64,000 bases of DNA from Thiogranum sp. (GTDB lineage: Bacteria; Pseudomonadota; Gammaproteobacteria; DSM-19610): contig JASBSS010000025.1 in the NCBI GenBank assembly GCA_030148805.1, forward strand, positions 1-64,000, written 5' to 3'. The notes beneath the pieces were generated by a model that had not been told where the DNA came from, did not search any database, and saw only the letters and a list, made by a program, of their open reading frames with translations. The translations under genes and the position numbers were made by a program. This document shows positions 15,647 to 20,458 of the stretch, one piece after another (positions within the stretch are counted from its first letter, which is position 1; every line of letters begins with the position of its first letter).

Positions 15647-17887
15647 TCAGTTGCGCTGTTCGAGCAGTGGACTTTCGCTGCGCTGCTGCAGCCACAGGGT
15701 GAGGGCCTCGGCCGACTGGGGCCGGGCGAGATAATACCCCTGCCCCTTGCCGCAGCCGCGCGCCAGCAGGCATTGCAGTTGCTGCTCGGTCTCGATGCCC
15801 TCGGCGACGACTTCGAGGCCGAGGCCCTGGGCCATGTGGATGATGGTGGCGGCCAGTTCGGTGTCGTACTTGTCGTGGGGAATATTGCGCACGAACGAGC
15901 GGTCGATCTTGAGCGTGTCGATGGGCAGCTGCTTGAGATAGCCCAGACAGGAGTAGCCGGTGCCGAAGTCGTCGATGGACAGTTTGACCCCCTCGCTTTT
16001 CAGCGCGTCGAGCGTCCTGGACACTTTGTCGCTCAATTGCAGGAAGATGCCCTCGGTGATCTCCAGCTCCAGCTGTTGCGGCCTGAGGCCGGCGGCGCGC
16101 AACGCCGCCCCGACCACCGCCAGGATCTGCCCGTGCTCGAACTGGCGCGAGGAGACGTTCACGGCCATGCGATAGCTTCCCAGCCCGGCCAGCTCCCACT
16201 GGCTCAACTGCCGGCAGGCCTGGTGCAGCGCCCACTCGCCCAGCGGCACGATGAGCCCGGTTTCCTCCGCCAGGGGGATGAAACTGTCGGGCGGCACCAG
16301 GCCGCGCTCGGGGTGTTCCCAGCGGATCAGGGCTTCCATCCCGAGCGCTTCGCGATCGCCCAGGCTGAAGATCGGCTGATAGTGCAGCACGAACTCGTCG
16401 CGCTCCAGGGCCTGGCGCAGACGGGTCTCCAGACTCAGGCGGTTGCGCACGCGCTGGGTGAACTCCTCGTTGTAGAACTGATAGTTGTTGCCGCCTTGCG
16501 CCTTGGCGTGGTACATCGCCGCGTCGGCGTCCTTGAGCAGATCCTCGCCGCTGCGGTCGTCGTCGGGATACACCGCGATTCCGATACTGACGGTGGAATA
16601 GATTTCGGTGACCCCCATGTCGATGGGCGCTTTCAGACAGGCGAGCATGCGCGCGGCCACCTGGTCGATGTCCGACAGCCGGCCAATACCGGGCAGCGTG
16701 GCGACGAATTCATCACCGCCGAAACGATAAAGCGTGTCCTCCTCGCGCAGACACCCCTTCAGGCGCCGCCCCACGTGCACGATGAGTTTGTCGCCGCTGT
16801 CGTGACCTAGACTGTCGTTGACGGTTTTGAAGCGGTCCAGATCGATGAACAGCACCGCGATCTTGTAGCCGCGCCGAGCGGCGCCCGCAATGGCCACCTT
16901 CAGTCCGTCGGCGAACGACACCCGGTTGGGCAGTCCGGTGAGCGCGTCGTAGTGCGCCAGGCGGTCGAGGCGGTCTTGCGTCTTGCGCCGCTCGTCGACC
17001 TCGGCCTGCAGTTCCCGGGTTCTGGCCGCCACCTGCCGGCGCAGCAACACGGTCAACCCGGCCATCACCAACACCACGCCGAGCAGGCCGGGCACCAGCC
17101 AGAAGACCCAGTCGGGAAAGTGGTGCGCGGTCGCGGGGTTCATCCAGCGTTGCAGCGCCTGGTAGTACGGCGAGTCCTTGTCGGCCTTCCAGGCCCGCAG
17201 ATAGCCGTCGATGGCGGCAAGCACCGCGCGGTGACTGCCGCCTGGCGCCGCATAGCGGATGTCGATGGGGTTGAAGACGATCCCGGTTTCGGCCAGATGG
17301 TAGGGCTGGGCATTGAGGGCGCCGAACAGGCGGTTGACCACGCCGGCATCGGCCCGCCCCGCGCGCACCGCCTGCATGACCTGGCTGAAGTTGTCGCACT
17401 CGAGGATCTGCAGCTCGACGGAGAACTTGCGCGCCAGCTCGCGGAACGCGTGGGCGTGGGTGTTGTTGCGCATCACCGCCACCCGCTTGCCCTGCAGATC
17501 GAGCAACGACCCGATGTGGGCGTCCGCGCGAGCGTAGACGATCCCCCAGTTGCTGAGAAAGGAATTGTCGGTATAGCTGAATTTTTCCGCCCGTTTGTCG
17601 GAATAGGCGATGGCGCTCAACAGGTCGATCTTGTGTTGCTCGAGGTTGCTCAGCTGCTGGGCGAACGAGCCGGGCACGAACACCAGCCGCCAGCGCCTTT
17701 CATCGGCGATCGCCCGCAGGGTGTCTACCGCGATCCCCCGCCATTGGCCGTCGGCGTCGCGCAGCACCACGGGCGGGTTCTCCCACACGCCCACCCGCAG
17801 CGTCATCCCGGGCGAGTCGCGCAAGGCATGCGCCGAAGCTTGACCGGTAACCACAACAACCAGCAGGGCAAGGATTAGATTACGCAC
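15647..17887 (-). CDS. Periplasmic-sensing GGDEF/EAL cyclic-di-GMP protein
   Basis: The 746-residue protein has a signal peptide (residues 1-19), an SBP_bac_3-type binding domain (about 28-245), a membrane segment (about 260-283), then GGDEF and EAL domains. GGDEF is intact at 390-394 with an RxxD inhibitory site (REED, 381-384). The EAL domain keeps EALIRW (518-523), DDFGTGYS (639-646) and EGIET (696-700). It could therefore both make and degrade c-di-GMP in response to a periplasmic small molecule, perhaps an amino acid. The start is GTG 17887, directly before the signal peptide. It is monocistronic. Confidence 0.93.
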
Positions 17888-17975: not shown

Positions 17976-19283
17976 TCAGGCGAAATCGTCCACCCGCAGG
18001 GCGCGGCCGATGTGCTCGCGGGTGGCCGCCGGCACGCCGGCCGTCTCGGCGAACTCCCGCCAGCGCGACACGCCCGCGCGCACCTGGGCGAGAATGTCCG
18101 GGGCGCGTCCGCGCTTGATCGAGGCGGCCCTGGCGCAGGCGTCGAAGTCCTCCAGGGTGAACTGCTCCCGCTTGCCGTTGAGGGTCATCTGATGGGTGGC
18201 CGTCCAGGCGCCGCCGGGGTTGTAGCTGTAGGTCATGTCGAAGGCCGGCGCCAACGACCACTGCCCGCTCTTGTCCATGAGAAAGGCGATGTTCTTCACG
18301 TGATCGTCCTGATTGCGCGCCAGGATGTTGAACGTCATGCGGCGCAACTGCTCCTCCAGCGAGGCCATCGGCAGGCCCAGGCGACGCATCACCCACAGCG
18401 CCTGTTCGTAGCTGTAGGCGCCGGCGAGGTTGAAGTCGTAGTGCGCCAGCGCCCCCAGCGACTGCATGTGCAGCTTGCCGCCGCCGGGCAGGCGGTCGAA
18501 GCGCCGGGTCATGAAATGGCGCCGGCCGTTTTCCTCGAACAGGCGGCACTCGTTCATGCGGATGCCGCAGGCGCTGGCCATCAGGTAATAGGCGTATTCG
18601 ATCGCGCCGTAACCGCGCGGGTCCTCGAGCTCCTTGTCGCGGTTGCCGCTGACGCCGTCGAACTTCAGCAACCAGTATTCAAAGCCCTCGCCGGCACTGA
18701 TCTGGCCGGAGCGCACTTCGTTGGTGTCCCGGTTCCAGGCGATCACCGCTTTGGCGCGAGCGCCGCCGGCGGAGGTGCCCACGCGCAGGATGTCAGTCAG
18801 CGCCTGATCACCCTCGCTGGCCGCGAACCGGGTCTTGAAGTCGCGCCGTTGGCTCAGGATGCGCGAGGCCAGTTCCACCAGCCGGTCGATCTCGATGCGC
18901 CGGGCTTCGCGCGCGCGCGGGCCAGTGGCCGGGGCGAACTCGAGCGCGCCCATGCCCCGCTCGCCGGTGTAACACAGCCGTTCCACCGCGTTGAGCGAAC
19001 CCGGCGCGCGGCCCTGGGAGACCAGCCAGGCGTCGATCAGCGCGTTACCGAAGCGATCCGGCAGGGCGTCGGAGAGCAAGCCCGGCAGACCGTGGAAAGT
19101 CGCGCGCGCGAGATCGGGAAAGCGATAGACGCGCCGCGCCAGGGGCATGCTCAGCGGCGAGATCTCGATACCACTGGCGGCGAACGCCGGGTCGTATTCG
19201 AACGCCGCCACGTCCTCCCCGGGCGCCAGCGACACCGCGCCGATGGTGCGTCCCCACAACCGGACCTCGGCGACACTGCTCAT
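17976..19283 (-). CDS. hipA: HipA-family serine/threonine kinase toxin
   Basis: The 435-residue protein has the HipA N-terminal subdomain (about 1-110) and the kinase domain. Key positions are the Gly-rich autophosphorylation-type loop [10 protein letters not shown] (Ser171), the nucleotide Lys in WLLKFD (207), the catalytic NQDDHVKN (324-331) and the metal-binding Asp in APAFDM (349). E. coli HipA phosphorylates glutamyl-tRNA synthetase; the target here is unknown. It follows the antitoxin with an ATGA overlap, as in hipBA. All catalytic residues seem present, so it should be active. Confidence 0.92.
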
Positions 19284-19627
19284 GCCTCTTCGTCCCAGCG
19301 CCAGGGCTCGGCGTTTGCGGGTTGGCTGCGGGCGGAGGCCCGGCGCCGGGTCTTGCCCTTGCGCTTGAGCTGCTCCATCGGACTGGGCATGGCCGCCGGC
19401 AGCAGGCGCTCCAGGCCGGGCAGCAGGTCCAGCACCCGCAACAGGCGGATCCAGCTCGACAACTGCCCGGAGGCCCCGGCTTCCAGTCGTTCCACGGTGC
19501 GTTTGGCCACCCCGGCCTGCTCGGCCAGGGCTGCCTGGGTCAGTTGCAGTTCCAGGCGCCGGTGGGCCAGGCGGGCGCCCATTTCGACGAGAACGGCCTC
19601 GTCGGTCGACAAAGCGGATATTTTCAT
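19280..19627 (-). CDS. hipB: HipB-like HTH antitoxin and autorepressor
   Basis: The 115-residue protein has an XRE-type helix-turn-helix at about residues 14-50 (TQAALAEQAGVAKRTVERLE) and a basic tail. It should neutralise the HipA kinase and repress its own operon. ATG 19627 is preferred over an in-frame GTG at 19636, which has no room for a ribosome site. The upstream 150 bases carry four spaced inverted repeats, and the promoter lies between two of them. Confidence 0.88.
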   Translation of the reverse strand: MKISALSTDEAVLVEMGARLAHRRLELQLTQAALAEQAGVAKRTVERLEAGASGQLSSWIRLLRVLDLLPGLERLLPAAMPSPMEQLKRKGKTRRRASARSQPANAEPWRWDEEA

Positions 19628-19776
19628 AGTCGTCACTTCTTACGAGTTAGCGCCAGAAGAGCGCAGATTTTCGCTATTTCTGACGAGTTATATCATAACA
19701 AAAACGATTAATCAACTCGTCTATTTTTACGAATTAATGATAAATTAGCCAATTATTCGTCATTTTTAACGAATTA
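19626..19776. promoter_or_regulatory. Four-operator control region of hipBA
   Basis: Four 24-base inverted repeats share the half-site TNACGARTTA, arranged as reverse arm, four bases, forward arm: 19626-19649, 19667-19690 (weak left arm), 19713-19736 and 19753-19776. Their starts are 41, 46 and 40 bases apart. The first overlaps the hipB start, the second the -10 and the third the -35. E. coli hipBA also has four operators, though of a different sequence. Confidence 0.8.
19687..19715 (-). promoter_or_regulatory. Predicted hipBA promoter
   Basis: On the reverse strand TTGATT (19710-19715) and TATAAC (19687-19692) are 17 bases apart. The -10 overlaps operator 2 and the -35 overlaps operator 3, so bound HipB would block polymerase. 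Confidence 0.65.
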
Positions 19777-19879
19777 TATCGAGAAAGTATCACAGTTCCT
19801 GTTGTCCGACTGACAGGCCGAGGACACCCTGTCGATAATCCCCGCTGCCAGTTCGACTAAGGACAACCTGGGACAACCC

Positions 19880-20458
19880 ATGGGCTTGCGCAGGCGCCTG
19901 AAGGCACTCATCACCTCCCGACGGGTTCTCAGCGGGACTTTCTTCGCCTCCCTGGCAGAATCGACCCTGGTCCCTATTCCCCTGGAGGCGGTGCTGATCC
20001 CGGCCATGCAGGCCAACCGGTCACGCCTGTGGGCGCTGGCCGGCGCCGCCTTGGCGGGGTGCCTCGTCGGTGCGTTGATGGGCTACGCCGCCGGCTATTG
20101 GCTGCTGGATATCTTCGGGCAGCGGCTGATCGCCTGGTTCGGCGATCCGCGGCAGTTCGATCAGGCCCTGGAGGAGATTCGCCGCAACGGGTTCTGGTTC
20201 GTGTTGAGTATCGGCGTGGTACCCATTCCCTTCCAGATCGCCATGCTCGCCGCCGGCGCGGTGCAGTACGCGCTGCCCGGGTATGTCGCGGCCACGCTGA
20301 TTGCCCGCGGCCTGCGCTACTACGGCCTGGCGTGGGTGGTATGGAAATTCGGCGATCAGGCCCAGGCGCTGTATCAGCGTCATCGCGCCGGCGTGTTGGC
20401 GGCGCTCAGCGCTCTGGTGCTCGCCGCCTGGGCGCTGGCAGGCAGGTTCGCGGACTGA
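19880..20458 (+). CDS. YqaA-type small membrane protein (DedA/VTT superfamily)
   Basis: The 192-residue protein has about four to five hydrophobic segments and the VTT-family features: an N-terminal re-entrant region with FFASLAESTLVPIPLEAVLI and FWFVLSIGVVPIPFQIAMLA, each with the conserved Pro-Ile-Pro. Members act in the inner membrane and some DedA relatives translocate lipids; the YqaA branch has no firm function. It is divergent from hipB. Its ATG is preceded by a short direct repeat (GGACAACC) rather than a clear Shine-Dalgarno. Confidence 0.85.
   Translation: MGLRRRLKALITSRRVLSGTFFASLAESTLVPIPLEAVLIPAMQANRSRLWALAGAALAGCLVGALMGYAAGYWLLDIFGQRLIAWFGDPRQFDQALEEIRRNGFWFVLSIGVVPIPFQIAMLAAGAVQYALPGYVAATLIARGLRYYGLAWVVWKFGDQAQALYQRHRAGVLAALSALVLAAWALAGRFAD

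Follow-up and report, generated by a model that had tools for sequence, protein, structure and literature searches.

Arrays of several operators in front of hip modules are already known from E. coli and Legionella (PMC10653801) and have been noted in Caulobacter (PMC7029023). The E. coli hipBA module has four operators, O1 to O4, of the type TATCC-N8-GGATA, with half-sites 8 bp apart (PMC3376134, PMC3920265), and cooperative binding together with a 70-degree bend is a feature of this E. coli array. In the Legionella HipBST system, evenly stepped inverted repeats (O1 to O3) lie over the promoter and are conserved in 28 species (PMC10653801), and the kinase, HipT, has no N-subdomain (PMC8262856). 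For the hipBA1 and hipBA2 modules of Caulobacter crescentus, a series of identical inverted repeats has been described, with a spacing said to suit a higher-order complex like that of E. coli (PMC7029023).

The locus analyzed here lies in a 64,000-nucleotide stretch of Thiogranum sp. DNA (hereafter, the window) and is a two-gene operon with hipB upstream, the hipB stop and the hipA start overlapping as ATGA. At the hipB start (ATG at 19627-19625, minus strand) there are four 24-bp palindromes, successive starts being 41, 46, and 40 bp apart, exactly at the positions and spacings given in the original prediction. The features are as follows:

17976..19283, minus strand: hipA, encoding a 435-aa HipA-family kinase toxin (Pfam HipA_C, 168.7 bits; Couple_hipA, 68.8 bits)
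19280..19627, minus strand: hipB, encoding a 115-aa XRE/Cro-type antitoxin-repressor (Pfam HTH_31, 32 bits, above cut-off)
19626..19649: O1, near putative operator of the proximal pair, ATAGTCGTCACTTCTTACGAGTTA; matrix score 21.6; nearly all relatives have a counterpart at -17 to -20
19667..19690: O2, far putative operator of the proximal pair, ATTTTCGCTATTTCTGACGAGTTA; matrix score 21.8; nearly all relatives have a counterpart at -57 to -60
19713..19736: O3, near putative operator of the distal pair, CAACTCGTCTATTTTTACGAATTA; matrix score 23.9; class A relatives have a counterpart at about -104/-105 and class B relatives at -86/-87 (see below)
19753..19776: O4, far putative operator of the distal pair, TTATTCGTCATTTTTAACGAATTA; matrix score 28.2, the highest of the four; counterpart at -144/-145 in relatives
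19687..19692, minus strand: predicted -10, TATAAC, overlapped by O2
19710..19715, minus strand: predicted -35, TTGATT, with a 17-bp spacer to the -10
19880-20458, plus strand: divergent VTT-domain gene, about 100 bp from O4, with a sigma-70-like promoter at 19810-19839

The TCGT-N8-ACGA core of the palindromes (19630-45, 19671-86, 19717-32, and 19757-72) is perfect in three of the four sites, the second, O2, having a single mismatch (TCGC). The right arms, read on the plus strand, are stronger than the left ones, and the half-site initially proposed, TNACGARTTA, fits these right arms best and the left arms less well. The DNA upstream of the hipB ATG is AT-rich (33% GC vs 64% for the window). 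As had been anticipated, the array extends over the start codon, the -10, and the -35: O1 overlaps the hipB ATG and a weak Shine-Dalgarno sequence (AAGAAG, 19641-19636), O2 overlaps the predicted -10 and the probable transcription start, and O3 shares three bases with the predicted -35, with O4 lying further upstream. Directly downstream of hipA, a minus-strand gene (15647-17887) encodes a protein with SBP_bac_3, GGDEF, and EAL domains.

Gene order and domain content are those of a type II toxin-antitoxin hipBA module, i.e., hipB coupled upstream of hipA, both HipA domains in the toxin, and a Cro/XRE helix-turn-helix and a C-terminal tryptophan in the antitoxin. In the HipA alignment, the E. 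coli motifs TDGHAKN and TPFYDI match NQDDHVKN and APAFDM of the window. Two HipB tryptophans, W109 and W111, are retained in 90% or more of the members, neither being the last residue, unlike in E. coli, and the protein scores below the NCBIfam couple_hipB cut-off (37.3 vs 71.65 bits). The locus shares with Legionella HipBST a helix-turn-helix protein with several inverted repeats over its own promoter, but the Legionella repeats are three in number, with 53-bp gaps and another motif. Nor is it a HipBST module by gene content, since it encodes a full-length HipA with Couple_hipA in a two-gene arrangement, with no separate HipS or truncated HipT. The likeness to Caulobacter is in the repeat series, as described by those authors in their discussion, and that to the Shewanella oneidensis HipB-HipA-operator complex (PDB 4pu4, 4pu3) is in the HipB fold.

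E. coli hipBA is similar in layout, with four N8 palindromes before hipB and over the promoter in both systems. The original prediction, that the E. coli architecture is kept with an unrelated operator sequence, holds for the number of sites, the half-site separation, and the sequence (TATCC vs TCGT/ACGA), but not for the steps, which are 28/39/28 in E. coli and 41/46/40 in the window. In addition, the start codon is left uncovered in E. coli, where the nearest site begins at -39, whereas O1 of the window overlaps the ATG, and the E. coli HipB is shorter (88 vs 115 aa; 28% identity over 40 residues).

Support for the sites was obtained from 65 distinct related loci encoding HipBs 47 to 67% identical to that of the window; many of these relatives are metagenome bins, the taxon names of which may be wrong. 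With a symmetrized matrix built from 146 perfect-core sites of the relatives, the window's own locus being excluded, the four sites scored 28.2, 23.9, 21.8, and 21.6, and the next best position in the 64 kb scored 5.0. When the 230-bp region of the locus was shuffled 5,000 times, the best score per shuffle had a median of -6.6, a 99.9th percentile of 15.3, and a maximum of 23.6. The regions upstream of the 65 relatives contained 191 matches vs 0.55 expected from shuffles, with an approximate operator consensus, derived from the relatives, of TAATTCGYCATNNATGRCGAATTA. By these scores, a chance origin of the four sites can be considered excluded. Taken by itself, the locus gives weak palindrome statistics, with just two sites, O3 and O4, standing out by symmetry; the case for the sites rests on conservation and not on symmetry. 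A loose-pattern search found no other strong array in the same genome; single near-matches elsewhere in it were no commoner than in the reversed control, and the other near-matches were mostly two-mismatch, GC-rich palindromes.

Comparison of the related loci, in which absence of the array would have counted against the original prediction, showed that it is kept: at least one pair of sites 40 to 41 bp apart was found in 61 of the 65. Four sites, in two pairs, were present in 27 relatives, two sites only in 23, as a rule the proximal pair, and fewer than two in three, which indicates that four sites are not required. Among the relatives, 90 of 128 neighbor steps were 40 or 41. In the 27 four-site loci, the step between the pairs was 26-28 (nine loci), 35 (one), 40-41 (two), 43 (two), 46 (eleven), 48 (one), or 50 (one), and it keeps no helical phase. 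Because the 40/41 step is fixed while the gap between the pairs varies from 26 to 50, the array is, from its pattern across relatives, one of two pairs. The sites are thus not "evenly spaced," as had been stated; what stands is that there are four of them, arranged in the two 40/41 pairs seen in relatives and here 46 bp apart. Even where a pair is displaced by some 25 to 30 bp further from the ATG, the step is 40 (L045, -88/-48; L052, -87/-47; L077, -82/-42).

The distal sites define two classes: in class A they lie around -102 to -109 and -142 to -150, and in class B at -85 to -87 and -125 to -127. A deep split in the HipA+HipB tree (SH-aLRT 99%) separates the two classes. Pair-only loci are scattered across both sides of the tree, a pattern that repeated loss of the distal pair would produce. 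The array-bearing hipBA family occurs in several bacterial phyla, and this distribution, together with its patchiness, suggests horizontal spread. Within the window's genus, the family (L010-L093) was present in one of the two other genomes sampled.

Several observations bear on which protein reads the sites. In 64 of the 65 relatives, HipA is encoded next to HipB and in the same orientation. In the predicted HipB model, a monomer of low confidence after about residue 70 that resembles the HipB structures 9u9g, 8ezt, and 4pu4, the recognition helix comprises residues 42-49 (KRTVERLE; pLDDT about 95 there), of which K42, R43, T44, E46, R47, and E49 show no variation across the 32 members aligned. 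This helix is unchanged in relatives with a TCGY..RCGA operator and altered in two that lack one. One of them, L054, has KST in the helix and CG-less sites, TTCATCAT..ATGATG, 41 bp apart, read partly by eye, a motif-agnostic search having ranked a different repeat first; the other, L022, has NRTMAR and sites of the form GACAAA..GGCG, also 41 bp apart and read partly by eye (p about 0.25). With two such single-locus exceptions plus one sister clade (see below) as its basis, the tracking of operator changes by helix changes provides modest independent evidence that HipB itself may read the sites. Among the most distant HipBs, a motif-agnostic search placed the 41-bp lag first or second in L022, L027, L029, and L131.

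The sites could instead bind another regulator or control the divergent VTT-domain gene, given that O4 is only about 100 bp from this gene and its sigma-70-like promoter. However, the array accompanies hipB-hipA across phyla while the VTT gene is beside it in none of the 65 relatives, the register of the sites tracks the hipB start codon and promoter, and the operator sequence changes along with the HipB recognition helix. We consider this explanation very improbable and rejected it. The role predicted at the outset is strongly supported by the conservation and register of the sites and by their link to a single HipB type, and the four palindromes are, on this comparative evidence, very probably autoregulatory operators of the HipB antitoxin.

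The predicted promoter accords with such operators. In the 14 loci with the 46-bp between-pair step, including that of the window, a TTGxxx at -87 to -89 followed 17 bp on by TATAxx was the best promoter match in 12, so that the 46-bp step fits the promoter exactly between O3 and O2. In class B relatives (e.g., L086, L088, and L091) there is a possible -35 at -37 and a -10 inside O1, with the start at about the ATG. Class B promoters, with their 27-bp step, may possibly lie one site further down and give a leaderless mRNA, an arrangement seen in 5 of 12 loci. The position of the predicted promoter also bears on whether the repeats might be hairpins of the leader RNA, acting as an attenuator or Shine-Dalgarno switch, and not DNA operators. 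The transcript probably includes O1 as well as part of O2, with the Shine-Dalgarno sequence overlapped by O1, but O3 and O4, at or upstream of the -35, would be untranscribed from the predicted promoter and yet have the same motif and spacing. This explanation, the least probable of those considered, was likewise rejected, and we retain the HipB operator interpretation.

HipB dimers, alone or with HipA as a putative co-repressor, would bind with one recognition helix per TCGY/RCGA half-site, the half-sites being about one helical turn apart. The two complexes on each pair, separated by 40 to 41 bp or about four helical turns, would then occupy almost the same face of the helix. O1 and O2, the proximal pair, would cover the -10, transcription start, Shine-Dalgarno sequence, and start codon, and O3 and O4, the distal pair, the edge of the -35 and upstream DNA, both pairs together shutting off hipBA when antitoxin is plentiful. 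The E. coli work (PMC3376134, PMC3920265) makes cooperativity within the pair, and DNA bending, plausible by analogy.

The spacing also persists where the operator sequence has changed. In a sister HipB clade (L116-L129; about 38% identical to the window HipB; helix LSLNAIKSLE), the operators are TAATAGCC..GGCTATTA, with N8 between five-base half-sites, and are unrelated to TCGT/ACGA. This clade keeps the proximal pair (-20/-61) and, in 10 of 14 loci, a second 40-41 pair 38 to 61 bp beyond, in line with the notion that the architecture can outlast the sequence. Among its neighbor steps, 25 of 40 are 40 or 41 (22 of these, 41), as counted with a matrix scored on the loci it was trained on (seed motif, 20 sites vs 0.47 expected in shuffles).

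Two further hipBA modules are present in the same genome as the window. The second (contig C21, L115/L170; hipB start L115:788) encodes an 82-aa HipB and has four palindromes, TATnCG-N6-CGnATA, with steps of exactly 27/27/27 bp; together with its relatives, which have varied half-sites, 27 or 28 was the value in 27 of 30 neighbor steps, counted from positions obtained with one seed motif, several matches being at its threshold. The third (contig C23, L112; hipB start 824) carries two palindromes, both near-perfect (AAATATG..CATATTT) and spaced by 31 bp. Operator sequences and spacings all differ between the three modules. In the families sampled, the step, as judged from these sequence counts, goes with the HipB type, short HipBs having 27-28 bp and long ones 40-41 bp.

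Spacing, and not sequence, may accordingly be the conserved trait of hipBA promoters, falling into discrete classes by HipB type as the imprint of two HipB-HipA assemblies, a proposition to which we give even odds. As a refinement, the 40/41 step may reflect protein contact across the pair, with HipB-HipA complexes touching through HipA-HipA, and the higher-order complex on the pair would both repress and keep the kinase inactive, each pair acting independently; these two elements taken jointly stand about evenly between right and wrong. A protein contact is consistent with the step being fixed within pairs and free, out of helical phase, between them, the latter also in the sister clade (38-61), and with short HipBs having a different fixed step (27-28). 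It is also consistent with the E. coli two-operator structures 4yg1 (HipB-O1-O2, 28 apart) and 5k98 (HipA-HipB-O2-O3, 39 apart), the latter offering, by analogy, a natural template for the 40-bp pair of the window. However, a fixed step could come from HipB-HipB contact or DNA bending alone, and the promoter geometry, with O2 on the -10 and O1 on the start codon, could fix it too. We did not find the pair rule or its split by HipB type described within the limited literature searched.

If the spacing classes do reflect two assemblies, the complex that long-HipB systems form on pairs of 40-41 bp is predicted to be a distinct one, and the retention of spacing across unrelated operators would provide a sequence-only test of assembly geometry. 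Since the three modules of this genome differ in operators and spacings, the data also suggest how several hipBA modules may coexist in one genome without cross-talk. At stake is the extent to which the E. coli model of HipBA-promoter assembly, used to explain heritable antibiotic tolerance, would apply across the many diverse hipBA modules.
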